Virus record (IMG/VR): IMGVR_UViG_3300032287_003113
Location: 155,880-219,879 of that record
Length of the DNA: 64,000 nt
Strand: one strand, 5' to 3'
Origin: a virus
The notes beneath the pieces are model-generated. The model searched no databases. It had not been told where the DNA came from and worked only from the letters and a program-made list of their open reading frames with translations. Both the position numbers and the translations under genes were made by a program. Positions 24,418-39,832 of this stretch are shown piece by piece. The first letter of the stretch is position 1, and each line of letters opens with the position of its first letter.

Positions 24418-24599
24418 TATTCTACTCCAAAATGTTTTAAAATATTGTCACTGCTCTGATAAGGTTCGGCGGTGTGTGCAATATCAGCACACTCCCGCAC
24501 AATGGCCTGGGCAAACTCTTCAACCTTGAGTCGCCATATGGGGCTATGAGCAATGGTAAAGTGAGTGTCCTCGGCTATGCGTTGGATATTTTCGTTCAT
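24417..24599 (-). CDS. Hypothetical 60-residue protein
   Basis: The ATG at 24599 overlaps the TGA of the VWA gene (24598-24596) as ATGA, so I prefer it over an in-frame start further upstream at 24683. The product begins MNENIQRIAEDTHFTIAH. No domain recognised. Confidence 0.65.
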   Translation of the reverse strand: MNENIQRIAEDTHFTIAHSPIWRLKVEEFAQAIVRECADIAHTAEPYQSSDNILKHFGVE

Positions 24600-25840
24600 T
24601 TCACAGCATCTTCGTAGTGGGCATACACACCAAACTCGGGTTTGGCTTCTTTGTTGCCTTTGATAATCCACACAGTATCGCAATACTGCTCGACCTGATC
24701 AGGGCTCCAACCAAAGAAACAAAAGTCAGTAAACATGATCAATTTCTTGGGTTCGATGTTGTTTTCTTCCAACCAGGTCCAAACACAATGCGGATCTGTA
24801 CCACCGCCACCACCCGGTACAAAGCTCTCAATGTCAGCGATATTGTCCGATGTGAATATTTCGTGATTGTGTACTTCGGTATCCCAACCCAACACATGGA
24901 TACGATATTCGTCGTAACTTTCCATGATACCTTTGATTTCACTCAAGAAAATCTTGAGATCTGGGTCAGTGATACTACCTGAAGTATCAATACCAATCAC
25001 AACATCAATCTGGTTGCCGGGCAACATGCCGGGCATGACAGCATCCATATGCCACCCTCTGCGGCTGGGACGTTGCCAAGTAAAATCACTCTTGATAGAA
25101 CTTTCAACCTGCTGATTGATCAACTCACGCCAGTTAATCACAGGTTCGGTTAGGTCCTTGATCATGCGTTTGACACCACCGGGCAAATTACCTGCACCCG
25201 AAGCATTGGCGGCATTTAGTACTGCATCTTTGATTTCGTCGCGAATAGCCTTCTTTTCTTCTTCGCTCAGGCGTGGACGACCGTTGCCTGGCTTGTCGCC
25301 ATCTTCGCCTTCACCACCTTCTCCGTCCAAATGTTCGTCTAGTAGACGCTTCATCAATTCATCAATGTTGATTTTGTCGGCATTGGCATACAAGTCATCA
25401 TACACTTCTTCGGCACTCATACCTTTGTACTTCGAGTCGTACAGGGCAACGGGAATCTTGTCGCCAATACGTTGTTCTACCAGGTCCCAGTTTACGCAAT
25501 AGTCATCGGCAATGTTCCACAGTTTTGGATCTCTGTTGCCACGACGTCCCATATGGTCATAAACCGCATGAAGCACTTCATGTCCGACCAAGAATTCCAA
25601 TTGCTTTAGGGGAAGGTTATTGACAAACTCTGAATTATAGTAAAATTTACGGCCGTCTGTGGCGGCAGTAGGACACCATTCATCTGCGTTGATAAGTGTT
25701 AGGCGGGTAGCAAGGTTGCCAAAGAATGGAGCACGGAGCAAAAGACCAATACGTGCGGTAACCAGTTTTTCGCGGGCACTTGCATCCGTCTTGGGATCTG
25801 TTACTGTTACCGCTTTACTTTTTTCTGCTAGTGTAGTCAT
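24596..25840 (-). CDS. VWA-domain protein with HExxH zinc-peptidase-like motif
   Basis: 414 residues from the ATG at 25840, which follows a good AGGAG; a longer in-frame start at 25873 lacks one. HEVLHAVYDH (87-96) is a metallopeptidase-like zinc motif. A Gly/Glu-rich linker lies near 165-185. The C-terminal VWA domain has the MIDAS-like DTSGSI around residue 280 and FTDF further on. Proteins of this build work with MoxR-type AAA ATPases, and one is encoded two genes upstream. A sigma-70-like promoter lies just upstream at 25865-25893. Confidence 0.8.
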   Translation of the reverse strand: MTTLAEKSKAVTVTDPKTDASAREKLVTARIGLLLRAPFFGNLATRLTLINADEWCPTAATDGRKFYYNSEFVNNLPLKQLEFLVGHEVLHAVYDHMGRRGNRDPKLWNIADDYCVNWDLVEQRIGDKIPVALYDSKYKGMSAEEVYDDLYANADKINIDELMKRLLDEHLDGEGGEGEDGDKPGNGRPRLSEEEKKAIRDEIKDAVLNAANASGAGNLPGGVKRMIKDLTEPVINWRELINQQVESSIKSDFTWQRPSRRGWHMDAVMPGMLPGNQIDVVIGIDTSGSITDPDLKIFLSEIKGIMESYDEYRIHVLGWDTEVHNHEIFTSDNIADIESFVPGGGGGTDPHCVWTWLEENNIEPKKLIMFTDFCFFGWSPDQVEQYCDTVWIIKGNKEAKPEFGVYAHYEDAVK

Positions 25841-25864
25841 TCTGTTCGCTCCTGTATTATATAT

Positions 25865-25893
25865 ATTATACATTTAATTGATTTTTTGGTCAA
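25865..25893 (-). promoter_or_regulatory. Sigma-70-like promoter for the VWA gene
   Basis: On the minus strand, TTGACC (25893-25888), a 17 bp spacer and TATAAT (25870-25865). It lies 25 bp before the ATG at 25840. Its spacer ends ATTAAATG, as in the promoters at 27571 and 28531. It overlaps the last codons of the next gene. Confidence 0.8.
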
Positions 25894-26176
25894 CCTTTTG
25901 GTTAGCACGGTTTTTTCGTTGATTAAACACATCTTCCATGCCCTGTACACTAGAACCAGGCTTGATCACTTGTGGTGCTGTGGGCTGGCTGACTGCGACT
26001 GTGGCACGTGGTTCAGGTGCTGTGGGACGGCAAATATCATTGCCGCTGATGCTTCGGCTGATCTTGCAGTCTTGATCGCGAACAGCACTGATACCATGGT
26101 CTGCTAGACCTTTACCGGTGGTTTCTACCGAAGCCACACTAGCTAGACCGACTATGAGCAAAGGACCTATGACCAT
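25874..26176 (-). CDS. Small exported protein, probable signal peptide or anchor
   Basis: 100 residues from the ATG at 26176 (AAGGTGG five bases before it; a GTG at 26185 is the alternative). It has a hydrophobic N-terminus (MVIGPLLIVGLASVASV), then GLADHGISAVRDQDCKISRSI with two cysteines (DQDC, NDIC) that could pair in the periplasm. The ADHxxSxxxxxDCxxxR pattern recalls small exported proteins of Alphaproteobacteria, which is a weak host hint. Function unknown. Confidence 0.6.
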   Translation of the reverse strand: MVIGPLLIVGLASVASVETTGKGLADHGISAVRDQDCKISRSISGNDICRPTAPEPRATVAVSQPTAPQVIKPGSSVQGMEDVFNQRKNRANQKVDQKIN

Positions 26177-26364
26177 TGTGGCCACCTTAACATAAAATAA
26201 GTACGGTCTGCTGGGTCGGGGATATATAACATCATTTGTCCTAGTGCTATCTTATTGTGGCCTAACCAAGTACCAATGGATTCTTTGTTATCTAACCACC
26301 ATTTACGATTCATGACTACACAAATCTCTGGAGTATCTAGTTCTGGACAAAAGTCATAGTTCAT
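26167..26364 (-). CDS. Hypothetical 65-residue protein
   Basis: The product begins MNYDFCPELDTPEICVVMN and is Trp-rich. It overlaps the next gene by 10 bp. No function recognised. Confidence 0.6.
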   Translation of the reverse strand: MNYDFCPELDTPEICVVMNRKWWLDNKESIGTWLGHNKIALGQMMLYIPDPADRTYFMLRWPQWS

Positions 26365-26419
26365 AAGAATAAGGAGGACTTACAGCGTGTGCCTGCCCCC
26401 TGCCTGTGACAGCAACCTT

Positions 26420-27526
26420 TTACTTACCGCCTGCCGCGATAATGTACTTGCCGTACCGCTTATGGAACTCATCAAAGTTCTTGAGCTTGCCTGGTACCAA
26501 GGGTAAGTTGTACGTGGTCAACGCAACTCTAGCACCCATAACAACCAATTCAGTGGTAAAGTTATCCATCATAAAGCGGAAGAAGTTATCGGCCATACCG
26601 TGCCATTGGCTGATCTTTTCCTTGCCTAGTTTGGCATAAGCATCTTGCAATTCATAGCACATGGACACAGTCAAGGAGTACATGGCACTGACTTCTTTGA
26701 CATCTAAAGTCTTGACCTTGCCTGCCAAGATTTCGCTTGGGTTAGGCATCTTGCTGGCAACCTTGCGGTGTGCCATAAACTTAACTGCCAAGCCATCACC
26801 GATAGTACCAGCAATCAAGTCCGACAATTCTGCATCTGTGGCATCTTCGTCATGTAAGAATTCACTTACAAAGTGCCATGAACGTGGTGTTGCAAAGGCA
26901 CGGCTGGCTGAGCGTGGGTTAAAATCCATCAAGTCTTGCTTGGCAAAACCAATGTAACCTACCACGTCCTTGTGCTCACGATTCTGCACAGCCCACTCGT
27001 TCCATGAGTCGTAATCAGCACGTACTTCCAAATGTACGAAACGATTTGCCAGGGGCATTGGCATACGGAAACTAACACCTTTGTCGCTTTCACGATTACC
27101 CGCGGCCACAATTACCACATTCTTGGGCAGGTGATACTTGCCTAGTCTGCGATTGAGAATCAACTGATAGGCCGCGGCCTGTACTGCCGGGGCTGCCACG
27201 TTCATTTCGTCCAAGAACAAGGTCACAACAGGATATTCTGCGGCCAACTCTGGTGTTGGTAAATCCACAGGTTCAGCCCAGTCCATTTTGCCCGACTCTT
27301 TGTTATAAAACGGAATACCACGCAGATCTGTGGGCTCCATCTGGCCTAGACGTAAGTCAATGGTATAACCGCCTAATTCTTGGGTAAGACCGGCTACCAA
27401 TTCACTTTTACCTACTCCGGGAGGACCCCAAATAAAAACAGGGCGTTGGACTTTGAATGCACGAAGCAAGCGGCTACGGCATTCATTGGGTGTTACTGTA
27501 CGGCTTTCACTAATAGTTGTACTCAT
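26420..27526 (-). CDS. MoxR-type AAA+ ATPase
   Basis: 368 residues from the ATG at 27526 (AGGAG in front). Walker A GPPGVGKS is at 34-41, Walker B TLFLDEMN around 107-114, and VVIVAAGNRES is sensor 1. MoxR ATPases act as chaperones that, with VWA proteins, mature or insert metals into other proteins. The VWA partner is encoded downstream at 24596-25840. A promoter lies just upstream. Confidence 0.9.
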   Translation of the reverse strand: MSTTISESRTVTPNECRSRLLRAFKVQRPVFIWGPPGVGKSELVAGLTQELGGYTIDLRLGQMEPTDLRGIPFYNKESGKMDWAEPVDLPTPELAAEYPVVTLFLDEMNVAAPAVQAAAYQLILNRRLGKYHLPKNVVIVAAGNRESDKGVSFRMPMPLANRFVHLEVRADYDSWNEWAVQNREHKDVVGYIGFAKQDLMDFNPRSASRAFATPRSWHFVSEFLHDEDATDAELSDLIAGTIGDGLAVKFMAHRKVASKMPNPSEILAGKVKTLDVKEVSAMYSLTVSMCYELQDAYAKLGKEKISQWHGMADNFFRFMMDNFTTELVVMGARVALTTYNLPLVPGKLKNFDEFHKRYGKYIIAAGGK

Positions 27527-27570
27527 CACAGGCTCCTAAAAATTACTACAAAATTAACTACTATAGAACT

Positions 27571-28218: not shown

Positions 28219-28500
28219 TTATCTGGAAAGATTCATTACACGACCTTGGAACTCGTTGAAGCTGACTCTCCAAGGCACAAATATTTCATGACCCACACGA
28301 CTGTCGGGACCGGATTGATTAGTATCGGTGTCGGCACCAAAATGATCACGGGTAACACGGATCTTGTAGGCCTGATAACCTTGCTCGGTATTGTGAGCAT
28401 CAATCACTTGACCTTCGATAAAACAATCATCACGTCCCGCCATGGGTTTGAAATCATAGCTACGGATGATATCACCATCTACTATTGTTAGTCCAACCAT
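28219..28500 (-). CDS. Conserved phage protein of unknown function
   Basis: 93 residues from the ATG at 28500, with AGGAG five bases before it; an upstream start at 28539 is less likely because it would lie in the promoter region. It contains DGDIIRSYDFKPMAGRDDCF and EGQVIDAHNTEQGYQAYKI, possibly a small beta barrel. It is driven by the promoter at 28531. Confidence 0.7.
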   Translation of the reverse strand: MVGLTIVDGDIIRSYDFKPMAGRDDCFIEGQVIDAHNTEQGYQAYKIRVTRDHFGADTDTNQSGPDSRVGHEIFVPWRVSFNEFQGRVMNLSR

Positions 28501-28530
28501 TTTTAGCTCCTTTTTATTAACTATACATAC

Positions 28531-28559
28531 ATTATACATTTAATGGATTTATGGGTCAA
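28531..28559 (-). promoter_or_regulatory. Sigma-70-like promoter
   Basis: Minus strand TTGACC (28559-28554), a 17 bp spacer and TATAAT (28536-28531). The spacer CATAAATCCATTAAATG is nearly the same as at 25865. Confidence 0.85.
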
Positions 28560-28560
28560 C

Positions 28561-28590
28561 CAAAAAAACACCCCTAAAAAGGGGTATTTT
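28561..28590 (-). terminator. Intrinsic terminator of the R-M/GNAT cassette
   Basis: ACCCCT-AAAA-AGGGGT forms a 6 bp GC-rich stem. On the minus strand it is followed by G and seven T, a textbook terminator just after the stop of the ABC-GNAT gene. On the plus strand it is followed by ATTTT, so it may work weakly in both directions. Confidence 0.85.
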
Positions 28591-28611
28591 AAGCGTTGTA
28601 AGTCATTGATT

Positions 28612-29670
28612 TTATTGAGATTTTTTACCCATATATTCGTGGCTATAACACACCCTATAAGCATCGCGAACAGTGGTTGTGCCGCCATAGCCCGCCATTT
28701 TTCTAGCAGTACCGTCTTTGTTTAAGTAACTACCTATCCTAGACTTCTTGTTCATTGATGTGGGGCGCCACAGGTCTGACTTTTCTCTGTGTTCACCAAA
28801 GCTAGGGTGTGCAGTCTTACTAAAGTACCTTAGCCCACGGCTCACATATATTTCAGCAACGGCATCGCTAAACGCTGTGCCTATACCCATGCCCTGAAAC
28901 TCGGGAAGGATTACTGTACGATGACCACGCCAGTACGAATGAATATCTCTGTTGGTTGAATGTATTGCGGCATGGAAGCCAATGGGCTTGTCGCCTAACA
29001 GTAACACATAGTAATGAGCACTCTTACTGATTGCAGTATCTAGATAGTGATACCGACTGAAATATCTCCAATAGTCGACACTTGAGCTTTTGATGGTGAG
29101 TGCAAGTTGTGGTCTTGTCCCCAGTCGAAAGGGTGACCTCCGGTTTTCTAAGACACAGAGATCTGTGTCATATACGTAGTCTGGATCTAACCATTCTACT
29201 ATGTCTCGATGGCAACTGGCAATGTATAACGGATTGGTACTGCTTTGACGATCGTAAAACTTGCGAATACTCAATGCAAGACTCTTAGCAGTATCACGGT
29301 CCACAACACTTGTAAACTCATCTACTGCGGTTAATCCTTGGTCTAGACTTATGGCCATTTCAAAGCGATGATATTCGCCGTTGCTCAATGTTGCAGGTGC
29401 TCGGAACCAAGCGGGTATGCTACGCAGGCCACAGGCCAGTAACAACTCTTCTCCACGTTCAGGTGTGGTAAAGTTCTCTATTGTGTTAAGAGTATTATCT
29501 ACTACAGGTTGTTGAAGTTTGCCTAAGCTACGTAGGATAGTACTCTTGCCACTGCCTGACGTACCTACAATTAATACAATACCATCCGTTGGAAGCTCGG
29601 GTATTGCTACCTGTGACTCTTTATAGTCTGTGATGTCGTACTTGCGTTTAATTTCTTCTAAGTAGCTCAT
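28612..29670 (-). CDS. ABC-type ATPase fused to GNAT acyltransferase
   Basis: 352 residues. ATPase half: Walker A GTSGSGKST (36-44), signature LSNGE (95-99), Walker B region LTAVDEFTS (113-121) and ASCHRD (151-156) as switch His. GNAT half: VILPEFQGMGIGTAF (253-267) with the QxxGxG acyl-CoA loop, then FSKTAHPSFGEHREKSDLWRP. It has no membrane segment, so it is not a transporter. It begins as ATGA on the methyltransferase gene and is the last gene before a terminator, so it belongs to the restriction-modification operon. The acceptor is unknown; a base, tRNA or protein are all possible. Confidence 0.8.
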   Translation of the reverse strand: MSYLEEIKRKYDITDYKESQVAIPELPTDGIVLIVGTSGSGKSTILRSLGKLQQPVVDNTLNTIENFTTPERGEELLLACGLRSIPAWFRAPATLSNGEYHRFEMAISLDQGLTAVDEFTSVVDRDTAKSLALSIRKFYDRQSSTNPLYIASCHRDIVEWLDPDYVYDTDLCVLENRRSPFRLGTRPQLALTIKSSSVDYWRYFSRYHYLDTAISKSAHYYVLLLGDKPIGFHAAIHSTNRDIHSYWRGHRTVILPEFQGMGIGTAFSDAVAEIYVSRGLRYFSKTAHPSFGEHREKSDLWRPTSMNKKSRIGSYLNKDGTARKMAGYGGTTTVRDAYRVCYSHEYMGKKSQ

Positions 29671-30875
29671 GCTATTTCAAATACAGCAGGATTTAAATCG
29701 TTGATAGTTTTTTTATTTTTCTTAGGTACAGGCAACACCGGTTTAGTAAAAGTTTTTCCAAGAGAATCAGCACAAACAACATTTGATGCAGGAACACCGG
29801 GTAATCTTTTTAAAGCAGAATCTACATTAGATTGAGTTAAATCAATTCCGTATATGGTGTCCACAGGAATATTATTTGCTAATTTTCTTTTTTGTATTGC
29901 TACCAAAAACTGACCGTCACCACACATAGAATCTATAAAAGTATTATCTGGATTTGTAAATGCAGTAGGATCGTATTGTTCAATGACGTTTAATACTTCT
30001 TCTACTAAACTTGTTGGAGTAAACACTTCGCCTAATGCTTTAACACGGTCTCGATCTTCCGTAATATCATTATCTAATACTTTAGGAGCCGTCAAATCTT
30101 GCGGTGTAATATTCCATTCTTTAGGAGTTTCTAATCCCGTAACAATTTGATTAATATCAAATTTTTTAACATTACGCATACCAAATGCATGGCCGCGTAG
30201 TTTCATACGTTTAACATATTCCTTAAAAACAGGATTCTTTTCTACAAATAATTTTAATTTTTCTGCTTCGGCAATAGTAGCAGTTGGTATGTAGCAGATA
30301 GTCCCACCATATACTGCTTCATCTGTGACCGTATAACTTTTACGACTTTCCATTGTATAAAAGGCAAATTTAGGACCTGCGTCAATTTTGACGTCGGTAT
30401 AATCATATGCAACTTGATCTCTACCTTTACCGGGCAACTGTCTAATTACTTTATTCTTTTTACCTGCACCAAAAAACTTATTCATGCCATTGTTACTGCC
30501 ACTGTAATAAACAAAGTCAAAACAATCTGCAGGGTTGGGACTGTAAATCTTTGCAGCCATGCCACCTAATATTACAGGCGGGGTCGTGCGTGGAAGTTTG
30601 CTTACACTAAAGAAACAGGTGTTATACGGCCATACATCAAGATTGTCCATTAAATGAATAAAGTTAACTTGATAGTCTTTAAAGTACCCGTTGACCAAGT
30701 CTGGGATAATGCCTTTGAGGGTAATATTAACTAATGTACCAGAGTCGGCAACACGATTATCAAAATCGTTGCGTGTGGCTGTTTTATAAAGAGTGGTGTT
30801 TCCGCCAGTGCCGGCAATGTTATTACCTTCGGCTACATTGAACGCTGGGTTACTAATTGCATAATTAAATTGCAT
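29667..30875 (-). CDS. Circularly permuted N6-adenine DNA methyltransferase
   Basis: 402 residues. The catalytic motif IV is at the very start (NYAISNPAF, NPAF at 9-12, a variant of NPPF). The SAM-binding part is at the end: GEVFTP (282-287, motif X-like), FIDSMCGDGQFLVAI (313-327, motif I), YGIDL (342-346, motif II) and VVCADSL (motif III). The normal order is X-I-II-III-IV, so the protein is permuted, with the middle (about 60-280) probably target recognition. It is AT-rich compared with its neighbours. It overlaps the nuclease-like gene by 11 bp. Methylation of adenine in a specific site is inferred. Confidence 0.8.
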   Translation of the reverse strand: MQFNYAISNPAFNVAEGNNIAGTGGNTTLYKTATRNDFDNRVADSGTLVNITLKGIIPDLVNGYFKDYQVNFIHLMDNLDVWPYNTCFFSVSKLPRTTPPVILGGMAAKIYSPNPADCFDFVYYSGSNNGMNKFFGAGKKNKVIRQLPGKGRDQVAYDYTDVKIDAGPKFAFYTMESRKSYTVTDEAVYGGTICYIPTATIAEAEKLKLFVEKNPVFKEYVKRMKLRGHAFGMRNVKKFDINQIVTGLETPKEWNITPQDLTAPKVLDNDITEDRDRVKALGEVFTPTSLVEEVLNVIEQYDPTAFTNPDNTFIDSMCGDGQFLVAIQKRKLANNIPVDTIYGIDLTQSNVDSALKRLPGVPASNVVCADSLGKTFTKPVLPVPKKNKKTINDLNPAVFEIA

Positions 30876-31587
30876 TTGACATTTTCTTAAAGATTTCTTT
30901 TAATTCTTCTGTGGACTTTAAATATTTAGTCTGCCAAGATTTATATAATTCAGGTTCTGTTTTAGAATTAAAATTCCACCCAATTTGGTCTTGTCTTTTT
31001 TTATCTAAGTTTTCTTGAAGAATTGCTAATCTAGTAGCAGTATCACCTTTAATTTTTCCGGACCCTTGACTTGATCCGATGGCCTCGTAAAATTTAGGTT
31101 TGCCAGATTTTTTATCAATTTTGTAAGGGGTAATAGCACGTTGACGAATTTCATCGATTAGTTCGTCTTTGGTGAGATAAAAATATTCTACTTTAGTATT
31201 ATCCCATGCCTTCATAAACAAGTAACCAGCCAAATCTTCGTAAAAGCGTAATTGCCCACCACCAATTGCATCACCGGATGAAAACGATACCTTAAGTTCA
31301 ATATTATTTTTTCCTGGTACCAACATTTCTCCTGCAACTAAGTCGCCTAAGTCAAGACCTTCTTCGTCATTCTTTTTATCATAACTTAACGCATCTTTTT
31401 TCTTAGTACCAGTTTGGTGTGCTACCCAGCCCTCAATAAATTTTTCAGCTGATTTTTGTTTCATAGCACCATAATACTCGTACATTTCTGAATATGGTGT
31501 AATGTAATAATTTTCAATATTTTCTAATAGTTCTTGTATTTCTTTGCGTTCTTTATTGCTGGCTTTAATTCGATCAAGTAACGACAT
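30865..31587 (-). CDS. Probable PD-(D/E)xK restriction endonuclease partner
   Basis: 240 residues. D79 in LDLGDL and E97-L98-K99 in NNIELKVSFSSG fit the acidic and ExK parts of a PD-(D/E)xK nuclease site. The rest is Lys/Glu-rich and helical. It has no named family that I recognise. It sits directly upstream of and overlapping the methyltransferase, behind its own promoter and operator-like palindrome, which is the usual layout of a type II R-M pair. It is AT-rich like the methyltransferase. Role inferred from the motif and context. Confidence 0.6.
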   Translation of the reverse strand: MSLLDRIKASNKERKEIQELLENIENYYITPYSEMYEYYGAMKQKSAEKFIEGWVAHQTGTKKKDALSYDKKNDEEGLDLGDLVAGEMLVPGKNNIELKVSFSSGDAIGGGQLRFYEDLAGYLFMKAWDNTKVEYFYLTKDELIDEIRQRAITPYKIDKKSGKPKFYEAIGSSQGSGKIKGDTATRLAILQENLDKKRQDQIGWNFNSKTEPELYKSWQTKYLKSTEELKEIFKKMSNAI

Positions 31588-31603
31588 AGATTTCCCAATA
31601 TTT

Positions 31604-31621
31604 TACTGTAGAACTACAGTA
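31604..31621. promoter_or_regulatory. 18 bp palindrome at the cassette's transcription start
   Basis: TACTGTAG-AA-CTACAGTA, perfect 8 bp arms, overlapping the -10 box and the expected start of transcription of the nuclease/methyltransferase operon. It fits an operator for a repressor or R-M control protein. A second inverted repeat, AGTCAAC..GTTGACT (31641-31661), surrounds the -35 box. Confidence 0.6.
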
Positions 31622-31646
31622 TAACACAAATGGATTTATTAGTCAA
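31618..31646 (-). promoter_or_regulatory. Sigma-70-like promoter of the R-M cassette
   Basis: Minus strand TTGACT (31646-31641), a 17 bp spacer and TATACT (31623-31618). The spacer contains AATAAATCCATTTG, related to the promoters at 25865 and 28531. Confidence 0.8.
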
Positions 31647-31675
31647 CCTTTACAGTTGACTAAAAGTTATCCACA

Positions 31676-32071
31676 TTAAGTTATTACTATTCGCATGGTT
31701 TTCCAACTATTGTAGTACTGTTCGGTATTGTGACAGAGTCTACTGGTCACAATGTAACGATGATATCGTTGCCTAAACCTGCGATGAGATGTGGTAAGTT
31801 TATTGGGGTCAATTGACAACCAATAAAATGCGAGCCAGGCCCGCATGATAGAAACCACAGCAATTGGCGGAAAATCTCTGTCCATAATGGCATTTAAATA
31901 TTGATCAACTCTTTTATTGAGTTCATCGTTATTGTTCACACGGCTGAGTTCTTCGCCAACGGCAATAGCAATTTCTTCGGGGCGGCCATATTTGACCACA
32001 TGCTCTCCTACCCGTCCTTGCAAATCTGCCCAGAATAGTTTTTGTTTTTTGGTAAGACGTTTGACTTTCAC
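31676..32071 (-). CDS. Hypothetical protein
   Basis: 131 residues, basic, helical, begins MKVKRLTKKQKLFWADLQ. Contains a WLAFYWLS segment but no clear membrane span. Starts as ATGA on the upstream gene. Confidence 0.6.
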   Translation of the reverse strand: MKVKRLTKKQKLFWADLQGRVGEHVVKYGRPEEIAIAVGEELSRVNNNDELNKRVDQYLNAIMDRDFPPIAVVSIMRAWLAFYWLSIDPNKLTTSHRRFRQRYHRYIVTSRLCHNTEQYYNSWKTMRIVIT

Positions 32072-32382
32072 CCCAAGATCCTTTCAGAAATACGGTGAGA
32101 CATTGTGTCTGGCATCTCTTGACAAATGATATCAAGATAATAAAGTGCTATTTCTCTCACTGTAGCCAGATCAGATTCGCATTTAATTTGTAGAGCTATA
32201 TCGCTGTATAGTTGATAAGCATTTTGATATTGCGGTAATTCCATTGGATTGTATTCCACATACTCGTTGGTCAACAGTGGGTTGAACGAATCGTGCCCGG
32301 GTCTTGTTGTATGTTTTTGCTCTGATTTGAGTGCTGCTAGTAACGCTTTTAATCGCGTTGATTGATTTCTGTTGTTACTCAT
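32068..32382 (-). CDS. Hypothetical protein
   Basis: 104 residues, begins MSNNRNQSTRLKALLAALKS. No known domain. First gene after the long structured leader and the consensus promoter at 32546, so probably well expressed early. Confidence 0.6.
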   Translation of the reverse strand: MSNNRNQSTRLKALLAALKSEQKHTTRPGHDSFNPLLTNEYVEYNPMELPQYQNAYQLYSDIALQIKCESDLATVREIALYYLDIICQEMPDTMSHRISERILG

Positions 32383-32540
32383 TTGGACATTTCCTTCAAT
32401 GTGCCAACCTGCCGTTGTTAATATATAGAGTTACTTCTACTACTAACTACCATTGATACTATCGCTGGACTACCTGGTATGTTCGCTTATCTAGCATTGC
32501 ACTAGAGGGCCGGGTAGTGTCACCGGTTGGCCTGGTGATG
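32383..32540 (-). ncRNA. Structured 5' leader or small RNA
   Basis: About 160 transcribed bases between a consensus promoter and the first ATG, much longer than other leaders here. On the minus strand it can form CACC(A)GG-CCAA-CCGGTG near the 5' end and TCTAG-TGCAATG-CTAGA further on. No open frame of note. It could be a regulatory leader or a processed small RNA. Confidence 0.4.
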
Positions 32541-32545
32541 AAGTA

Positions 32546-32574
32546 ATTATATATTATTGTTGTAGTGATGTCAA
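32546..32574 (-). promoter_or_regulatory. Perfect consensus sigma-70 promoter
   Basis: Minus strand TTGACA (32574-32569), a 17 bp spacer and TATAAT (32551-32546): a 12/12 match. It drives the leader at 32383-32540 and the genes below it. Confidence 0.9.
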
Positions 32575-32599
32575 AAACAATATTTGCCAAACTTGTATT

Positions 32600-32986
32600 T
32601 TATTGCGTTGATTCTAAGTTATCTAAATAGGCTTTCAAGTTGCCAGAATGTAGTGTAAGCATCATGGCTTCCTCTTCTTCGAACACTATTATTTTTTGAC
32701 GTTTGAGCAAGTAATACATGCTTTTGAATTGCCGTTCTAATTGTAGTAGTTGGTGATTTGTTAATTCTTCGGGCAAGGCAAATTCATAGCTTTGTAGTTT
32801 AAGCACAGCCTTGACAAATTGTAAGCCGGCAAGACTTAGTCTTAGGCTGGTGTCGTCTGTGGGATTCTTCCACCAACGCAGTTGCAGGTCAGTGGTTTGG
32901 CCAACAGGAATGTTGGCCTGTTCAACAAATATTTTTGTGAGTTGACGTTGAGTGTAACGCTTATGGGAAGATTTTGTCGCCGGCAC
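32600..32986 (-). CDS. Hypothetical protein, GTG start likely
   Basis: 128 residues if translated from the GTG at 32986 (product begins MPATKSSHKRYTQRQLTKIF). The open frame runs further up to 33061, but that would place it fully inside the neighbouring gene. Overlap with the upstream gene is then 26 bp. The C-terminal half is helical and acidic (IIVFEEEEAMM). No function recognised. Confidence 0.55.
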   Translation of the reverse strand: MPATKSSHKRYTQRQLTKIFVEQANIPVGQTTDLQLRWWKNPTDDTSLRLSLAGLQFVKAVLKLQSYEFALPEELTNHQLLQLERQFKSMYYLLKRQKIIVFEEEEAMMLTLHSGNLKAYLDNLESTQ

Positions 32987-33248
32987 GTAACAGTACCACA
33001 CTGAACTTGTCAGTCTTAAACAAGGTGTTGAGTTTCTTGCACAGATTGATTGCATGGCCACTGTTACTGAAACTTACTTTTTTGTACTTGGGGCCAGGGT
33101 AGCTCACTAGAATATTGTGTGTTTTGAGATTGATAGGTTGATTGTCGTAGAACACCGCCCAGATACCTTCAGAGGCCAGCACTTGCTCGCTCTTGTAAGT
33201 GGTTTTGTTAACGTGGTCCAACAACACAGTTGGCTTGGGTCTAGACAT
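32961..33248 (-). CDS. Conserved phage protein of unknown function
   Basis: 95 residues, basic, begins MSRPKPTVLLDHVNKTTYKS and contains YPGPKYKKVSFSNSGHA. AAGGATAA lies before the ATG, and a late-promoter-like octamer is 26 bp further up. Confidence 0.7.
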   Translation of the reverse strand: MSRPKPTVLLDHVNKTTYKSEQVLASEGIWAVFYDNQPINLKTHNILVSYPGPKYKKVSFSNSGHAINLCKKLNTLFKTDKFSVVLLRAGDKIFP

Positions 33249-38276: not shown

Positions 38277-39137
38277 TTATTTGCCCCAGCCGTTGCCCCA
38301 AAGATCCACATGCAAACGTGGGCTGTAGTTAAATCCACGTTCACAACAGATATTGGCGATGTTTAGTTTGTTGCTTTCGTATGGGTCAACTACGCCACCT
38401 TGTGGCATTAGATATACCACACCTTTGAAACCGTCATGTCTAAATGCATCCACAGCACGTATGGCTTCTGTAACGTGATCTTCAGTTTCAACCACAAACT
38501 TGAGATAAGTGTGTCCGTAAGTTTGATAGATATTGACAATCTTGGGTTTGATAGCATCATCCCACGACTCGCCTGACGCACTTAGTTTGGCACTGACACT
38601 GAATGTGACTTCACGTCCGGCTTTGTCACTGGCCCAGTCAATCAAGTAATCGCGGAAGTCTTCGTGTAGTTCTTGAGTACCGTTGGTTTCAAATGTGATA
38701 TTCTTCAAGTCTGCCATGCGGTGATGACTCAACAGTTCTGCATAAGCACGTTGCCAACCTAGCAAAGGTTCACCGCCTGTAATAACCAAGTGAACATCAT
38801 TGCCATTGTTTTGCATCCACATGTTATTAGGTGTCAGCGCCAACATCTTTTCCACAAGTTCTTCTGTGGTCAGTGTGGGACTCAGGTGTTTGTAGGCTGG
38901 ATGCCACGATGCATAACTGTCACATCCTGTTTCTACCAATGGAAGATCGTTGAATGTTTTGTACAGTTCTACCTTTTTGGCCACGTCATCTGCACCTGTT
39001 GATTTTTCGCCAGGCTTGCAACCAAAACCTGAACAGGTAAAGTTACATCCGTATGTTCTTAAGAATACGCTAGGTACTCCAACAAAGCGACCTTCGCCTT
39101 GTAAGCTATAAAATATTTCGCTGACTTTAATCTTCAT
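38277..39137 (-). CDS. queE: 7-carboxy-7-deazaguanine synthase
   Basis: 286 residues. It opens IFYSLQGEGRFVGVPSVFLR, the QueE hallmark, then C31-NFT-C35-SGFG-C40, a spaced variant of the radical SAM triad. ITGGEPLLGW binds SAM. QueE turns carboxytetrahydropterin into CDG, the radical ring contraction in 7-deazaguanine synthesis. queD lies two genes upstream in the same operon and folE further up, so this is a pathway group. Overlaps the MazG-like gene by 11 bp. Confidence 0.92.
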   Translation of the reverse strand: MKIKVSEIFYSLQGEGRFVGVPSVFLRTYGCNFTCSGFGCKPGEKSTGADDVAKKVELYKTFNDLPLVETGCDSYASWHPAYKHLSPTLTTEELVEKMLALTPNNMWMQNNGNDVHLVITGGEPLLGWQRAYAELLSHHRMADLKNITFETNGTQELHEDFRDYLIDWASDKAGREVTFSVSAKLSASGESWDDAIKPKIVNIYQTYGHTYLKFVVETEDHVTEAIRAVDAFRHDGFKGVVYLMPQGGVVDPYESNKLNIANICCERGFNYSPRLHVDLWGNGWGK

Positions 39138-39402
39138 ATATTGTTGACCATTGTGTTAATTTTTGACTCTTTCTCACTTGTGCCGCATGTAATTCTGCTT
39201 CTGTAAAAATATTGTGTGCCTTGAGTAATTCTACTAACAATGTAACATCGCCTAGTTCTTGTACCAAATGTTCACGCTGGGTACCACCATCCTTGTAGCT
39301 ATTGTCAATACCAAAACGGCGAATCTTGCTGATAGCAACAATAACTTCAGCACACTCCTCTTGCAGTATGTCTAAGATTTCGTTAACCTTCGTAGATTGC
39401 AC
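39127..39402 (-). CDS. MazG-like nucleotide pyrophosphohydrolase
   Basis: About 91 residues from a GTG at 39402, or 103 from an ATG at 39438 lying deeper inside queD. LQEECAEVIVAISKI and HLVQELGDVTLLVELL give the EExxE...ExxD pattern of all-alpha NTP pyrophosphohydrolases. It may hydrolyse dNTPs or an alarmone. It is between queD and queE. Confidence 0.75.
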   Translation of the reverse strand: MQSTKVNEILDILQEECAEVIVAISKIRRFGIDNSYKDGGTQREHLVQELGDVTLLVELLKAHNIFTEAELHAAQVRKSQKLTQWSTIYED

Positions 39403-39832
39403 TATTGGCTCCGTGTTCGGCACACTCAACTCTAACACAATAACAACGATTATTAGTTTTTTCTCGAATCAATTGATCTGCAAAATTAAAAGCGTGTTCA
39501 GCAAACTTTTCTGCACCTACTCCATCAAACATTCGGATCTCTACTAGGTCTAATGCTTGTAATTCTTCGAACTTGGCCAAGTGTGGATCTTGTCGATCCA
39601 GGGCCAACTTGTGATCAAAGTGATCTTCTAGCCAGGCTTTTAGTTCTTTAAGTCCTCCAAAGTCCACTGCCCAGTTCTTGTTGTCTAATTGGTCACAACC
39701 AAATGTAAATGTGAACGCTAGGCTGTAACCATGTAGCAGATGACAGTGACTGTGATCAGCATTGGGCTGTCTAAATACAGCACTCAATCCAATGTTGTGT
39801 CCGTAATGTTTTGTTGAGTAATACTTTGCCAT
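39383..39832 (-). CDS. queD: 6-carboxytetrahydropterin synthase (QueD-like)
   Basis: 149 residues. HSHCHLLHGYSLAF (27-40) matches the zinc/catalytic block C-x3-HGH of QueD, but the last His of HGH is Tyr here. WAVDFGGLKELKAWLEDHFDHK is the classical middle motif with the DHK. It makes carboxytetrahydropterin from the folE product. The AGGAG before the ATG and a promoter at 39850 mark it as the first gene of the queD-mazG-queE operon. Confidence 0.88.
   Translation of the reverse strand: MAKYYSTKHYGHNIGLSAVFRQPNADHSHCHLLHGYSLAFTFTFGCDQLDNKNWAVDFGGLKELKAWLEDHFDHKLALDRQDPHLAKFEELQALDLVEIRMFDGVGAEKFAEHAFNFADQLIREKTNNRCYCVRVECAEHGANSAIYEG

Follow-up and report, generated by a model that had tools for sequence, protein, structure and literature searches.

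A variable nuclease/methyltransferase slot beside an ABC-ATPase/GNAT gene in a large phage

Genes and signals at the locus

The window analyzed here, a 64,000-base stretch of a viral record of 219,879 bases from a large freshwater phage, contains three overlapping minus-strand open reading frames that together form one unit (28,612-31,587). These are P1 (31587..30865; 240 amino acids), P2 (30875..29667; 402 amino acids), and P3 (29670..28612; 352 amino acids). P1 and P2 overlap by 11 bp, and P2 and P3 overlap via ATGA. On the same strand, a good sigma-70-like promoter (TTGACT-17-TATACT; 31618..31646) precedes P1, and a strong intrinsic terminator consisting of an 11-pair stem and a T run (28565..28590) ends the unit after P3. 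The first-pass annotation had described a discrete operon in an interval that starts about 50 bases past the end of P3 and includes all three genes, and we recovered the reading frames, the promoter, and the terminator. It had also placed palindromes at the promoter. The promoter is kept before P1 in two related loci (L016 and L011), unlike the palindromes, which are present in the window but not conserved in either relative. The palindromes therefore probably arose by chance, and we rejected them as operators. Just downstream of P3, the window encodes a MoxR-type AAA ATPase and a VWA/DUF2201 protein (24596-27529), which are kept in many relatives.

Base composition sets two of the three genes apart, in line with the earlier remark that they look AT-rich against their neighbors. 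GC content among the 69 genes of the window is lowest in P1 (32.9%) and next lowest in P2 (36.1%); the mean across genes is 42.5%, and P3 stands at 44.5%. Codon use is likewise outlying for P1 and P2, but not for P3.

P1 is probably a restriction-type nuclease of the PD-(D/E)XK class. The residues D79 and E97-L-K99, previously pointed out as D79 and E97-x-K99, are present, together with D82. In an alignment of ten relatives, K99 is invariant, E97 is found in nine and replaced by Asp in the tenth, and D79 and D82 are each found in eight; Q112 of a GGGQ motif is kept in all ten. The AlphaFold2 model of P1 was confident, with a pLDDT of 84.5. Of its best 11 fold matches in the PDB (Foldseek), nine were to R.PvuII and the others to Eco15I and HincII, all of them weak (E of at least 0.34). 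P1 matched no Pfam, NCBIfam, or PADLOC family, a profile search of the PDB returned no match, and no sequence similarity was found to known restriction enzyme families. Relatives of P1 were found in five viral loci.

By its motifs, P2 is most likely a circularly permuted DNA methyltransferase of the N6-adenine type. Because motif IV (NPAF, residue 9) precedes motifs X (GEVFTP, residue 282) and I (DSMCGDGQF, residue 315), the protein is permuted, as had been proposed. Family matches were to N6_Mtase (E = 5.5e-4) and to phrog_21201, a DNA methyltransferase family, and a profile match to M.BseCI (1.3e-5) covered motifs X and I. Motif IV is usually [DNS]PP[YFW], from which the NPAF of P2 departs, and NPAFN is invariant in nine P2 homologs. 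P2 relatives occur in 12 viral loci. Two relatives encode proteins of 160-190 amino acids that apparently have only the P2-type motifs X and I, located beside helicase-methyltransferase sets (L005:5427-5999 and L026:3964-4446). Another relative, which bears P1-P2, encodes an S-adenosylmethionine synthetase (L086:2103-3200), for which we found no match within the record of the window.

P3 is a fusion of an ABC ATPase and a GNAT acyltransferase domain, as the first-pass annotation had read it. It matches phrog_11143 over its full length (E = 2.6e-77) and, in Pfam, Acetyltransf_1 (8.1e-6) and ABC_tran (4.3e-5). Its motifs lie at residues 36 (Walker A), 95 (signature), 114 (Walker B), 152 (H-loop), and 259 (GNAT motif A), and the Walker A and B, D-loop, H-loop, and RxVxxP...QGxGxG motifs are invariant or nearly so in the family. 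We found P3 relatives in 77 viral loci. Proteins from pT24, PX29, P12024S, and LE3 align with P3 over most of its length, with identities of 34.7% for Tenacibaculum pT24 and 39% for Aeromonas PX29. In phages and prophages, the P3 family often adjoins a ParB-like gene and terminase. In bacterial genomes, a ParB-like gene (called from phage annotations and partly from Pfam) lies beside the P3-family gene in 43 of 69 analyzable loci, directly upstream in 38, and terminase genes, read by eye, often come next. In Porphyromonas and Pseudomonas phages, the next gene after the ABC-GNAT gene is annotated as a formyltransferase (L098:5023-5496 and L100:5032-5649). A literature search for COG2401 by name found nothing.

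ABC-GNAT proteins, with pT24 named among them, have been predicted to acyl-modify DNA bases (PMC7824862), and we infer that P3 likewise acylates DNA rather than protein. It is very unlikely, in our judgment, that P3 instead acylates a protein, such as the nuclease, the host RNA polymerase, or the ribosome, in a regulatory role. Some phage GNATs do acetylate proteins of the host, Rac being one (discussed in PMC7824862), and the Pfam match of P3 is to a generic GNAT. This view fits poorly with the genomic surroundings, since the family recurs beside ParB-like and terminase genes and lies here beside DNA methyltransferases and nucleases. We also rejected P3 as a Mom protein: when compared with Mu Mom using hhalign, the similarity was not significant (probability, 0.1%; E = 0.68), with a local alignment only on the HY motif.

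Exchange of the cassette in front of P3

P1 and P2 occupy a slot between P3 and c0, a conserved gene on the far (left-hand) side (32600..33061, minus strand) that recurs in P3 loci. In the window, the slot spans 29671..32608 on the minus strand, as delimited by blastn against four relatives (L003, L008, L007, and L059), and contains two small genes (31676-32071 and 32068-32382) besides P1 and P2. The comparison with L003, a relative from a 356,865-base contig, was the most direct. In bins of 150 bases, the flanks of the two phages are mostly 97-100% identical on both sides, while 29,671-32,608 of the window is wholly different in L003, which has another cassette there. Identity drops from 99-100% to 77-93% within P3 and to 85-87% at the other end of the tract. 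Divergence per gene follows the same outline, with a dS of 1.14 and a dN of 0.065 for P3 and a dS of 0.60 for c0, compared with a dS of 0.00-0.09 for the other flank genes. From sliding identity and per-gene dS, the exchanged tract runs approximately from 28500 to 32950 on the minus strand and includes P3, so cassette and P3 allele changed together between near-identical phages. The high dS and low dN of P3 indicate that a diverged allele was substituted, rather than that selection was relaxed, and the strong purifying selection implies that P3 has an importance of its own for the phage. Recent transfer of the nuclease and methyltransferase genes, earlier suggested from composition, is supported by the composition of P1 and P2 and by their clean replacement relative to L003.

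Among relatives, a variable cassette precedes a constant P3. Its commonest content is an HNH-like gene accompanied by a DGQHR/ParB-like gene. P1 and P2 together are found in the window and in L016, and with a diverged P1 in L011 and L078, so that the three-gene order does recur elsewhere, a search that had been suggested for this locus. Other relatives have P1 alone (L037 and L038), a REase-like gene with a TSPPY methyltransferase (L028 and L050), a D12 methyltransferase with an unknown gene (L046), a helicase with methyltransferases (L005, L026, and L047), or UvdE (L053). An HNH gene (c6) and an apparent GIY-YIG gene (c41) occupy the slot in some relatives, the assignments of c41 and of c19, c27, c34, and c2 coming from motifs judged by eye. 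For c2, only motif conservation and a weak match to Cas9 (positions 768-868 of that model) favored HNH, Foldseek being uninformative. Further contents exist, and many lack any methyltransferase.

Profile matches describe the same pattern. Across 41 loci, the commonest PHROGs matches in the slot were HNH nuclease, DNA methyltransferase, helicase, and ParB-like families. Control genes from the same loci (n = 110) belonged mainly to resident exonuclease, phosphoesterase, and ATPase families, with no DNA methyltransferase family among their 25 commonest PHROGs. On a tree of 46 distinct P3 sequences, we mapped 17 cassette states, which require the cassette to have changed at least 26 times, a count that is approximate because the states were assigned by hand. 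The closest relatives of the P3 of the window hold other cassettes.

The module of a DGQHR/ParB-like gene (about 350 amino acids) and an HNH-like gene (about 185 amino acids) is itself mobile and widespread in viral contigs (L003:3613-5216 and L187-L262), sometimes with a PD-(D/E)XK-like gene after it. Only 10 of 80 loci with this pair have P3 nearby. We rejected c5 and c7 as clear homologs of the LE3 ParB protein, which hhalign did not support; the only match was to phrog_1033 at about 1e-5.

Mobility of the P1-P2 pair and its possible role

Related phages also carry P1-P2 at other sites (INDEPENDENCE), as in L081, where it is flanked by an exonuclease-type gene and a QueD-like gene. The overlapping genes recur as a pair in L016, L081, L082, and L089, and in the last three P3 is not adjacent. 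P2 is also paired with other PD-(D/E)XK-like nucleases (L085, L090, and L093). Judged from gene order, travel as a pair and the union of P2 with alternative nucleases are the behavior expected of a restriction-modification pair. Because P1-P2 occurs without neighboring P3, and P3 with other cassettes, we rejected an obligate partnership of P3 with P1-P2. The first-pass annotation had proposed a restriction-modification or anti-competitor module with an acyltransferase as a new third member. The first part of that proposal is supported, in that P1-P2 resembles a restriction-modification pair. The second is not supported, as P3 is a resident that meets many unrelated cassettes and belongs to a known family for which DNA acyl-modification was already predicted (PMC7824862). 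Elsewhere in the window (38277-39832) are QueE-like radical SAM and QueD-like PTPS genes. We rejected deazaguanine insertion into DNA by a TGT-like enzyme, since no TGT-family enzyme was found in this virus record.

The reading that we favor, with a probability of about 0.55, is that P1-P2 is a mobile restriction-modification pair of a type II-like kind, lying in a hot spot of recombination next to the resident ABC-GNAT gene. A compact pair of this kind would have recombined directly upstream of P3, giving one transcription unit. P2 would methylate the phage DNA at the site recognized by P1, and P1 would cut DNA that lacks this mark, whether it belongs to the host or to a competing phage; that the two enzymes act on the same site is inferred. 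P3 would separately acylate DNA bases in an ATP-dependent manner, protecting more broadly against nucleases of the host and of rivals. The content of the slot would be swapped by homologous recombination in the conserved flanks, with the P3 allele carried along.

An alternative is that the slot serves as an insertion site for selfish, free-standing nucleases resembling homing endonucleases, with P3 a mere neighbor whose divergence reflects co-conversion around the insertion. The HNH and apparent GIY-YIG genes in the slot would suit this explanation, as would the mobility of the cassettes elsewhere and an exchange tract that takes in both P3 and c0. Yet the slot also holds genes that are not of the homing kind (methyltransferases, helicase-methyltransferase sets, and UvdE), and P3 is under strong purifying selection. 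We consider this explanation unlikely. P1 itself is not of the LAGLIDADG, HNH, or GIY-YIG type.

Somewhat less improbable, though still doubtful, is the idea that the acyl mark made by P3 is itself the protector against whatever nuclease occupies the slot, P2-like methyltransferases being optional extras. L037 and L038 have an intact P1 (80% identical, with ELK kept) directly before P3, and no P2 was found in the slot or in the rest of these 30-kb and 13.5-kb records, which are fragments. Methyltransferases are missing from many other slot contents, and P3 is exchanged along with the cassette. The logic of a constant protector also matches what Aravind and co-workers predicted for Mom fused to nuclease domains, namely, a marker combined with a nuclease (PMC7824862). 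Against it, the HNH-like/DGQHR cassette occurs in eight large contigs (103-347 kb) from which P3 is absent, some fragments carry P1-P2 but no P3, and P2 would be superfluous.

Some of the slot enzymes share a further feature at their C termini. P2 ends in NPAVFEIA, and a hydrophobic-acidic tail ([LIV]F[ED]) is common to P2 and several unrelated slot enzymes of relatives. The pattern [ILVMW]F[ED] was present in the last 10 residues of 12 of 93 slot proteins versus none of 110 controls, having been picked after the tails had been seen. Among the slot proteins of the window, only P2 has it. Fresh loci yielded 10 of 184 slot-like proteins versus 7 of 565 others, mostly from a few families. The DNA polymerase of the phage itself (56873-59566) ends in FDDLFSFE, which resembles the clamp-binding tails of T4, where hydrophobic-acidic C termini attach the polymerase, gp55, and gp33 to the sliding clamp (PMC2988020). 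Given these counts, the polymerase tail, and the T4 precedent, a tether between slot enzymes and the replisome is a testable idea only. A bolder and rather improbable extension would be a modular weapon, in which a constant P3 mark protects the phage while rivals swap the cutting partner, the slot enzymes perhaps being tethered to the clamp by their tails.

Should P3 prove to be a general shield for DNA and the slot nucleases be interchangeable, the locus would show how large phages compete inside one cell. It would then be a source of new nuclease/methyltransferase pairs and perhaps of a new acylated base. Under the more modest interpretation, too, the window and L003 provide natural, near-identical phages that differ in their weapon slot.

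Relation to known systems

The component families of this locus are already known or predicted, whereas a fixed ABC-GNAT gene with a swappable, co-exchanged nuclease/methyltransferase slot appears to be undescribed in the literature searched. Like type II restriction-modification systems, P1-P2 joins the gene of a small, probable PD-(D/E)XK-type nuclease to the overlapping gene of a likely methyltransferase, and the pair is mobile as a unit. It differs in being located on a large phage, ahead of an ABC-GNAT gene, and in the NPAF of motif IV in P2. Members of the ABC-GNAT family described by Iyer et al., including that of pT24, are elsewhere often near ParB-like and terminase genes, whereas P3 lies here behind interchangeable nuclease/methyltransferase cassettes. 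Mu Mom and the Mom-nuclease fusions of jumbo phages resemble P3 in the GNAT fold and in the proposed combination of a marker with a nuclease, but P3 also contains an ABC ATPase, and the nuclease is encoded by a gene of its own, which can be exchanged. Finally, work on P2-like phages and P4-like satellites describes hot spots of variation as reservoirs of antiphage genes (PMC9122126). Relative to that account, our locus is also a site of variable cargo, but one on a large phage, where a DNA-modification-type gene flanks the slot and is exchanged together with the cargo.
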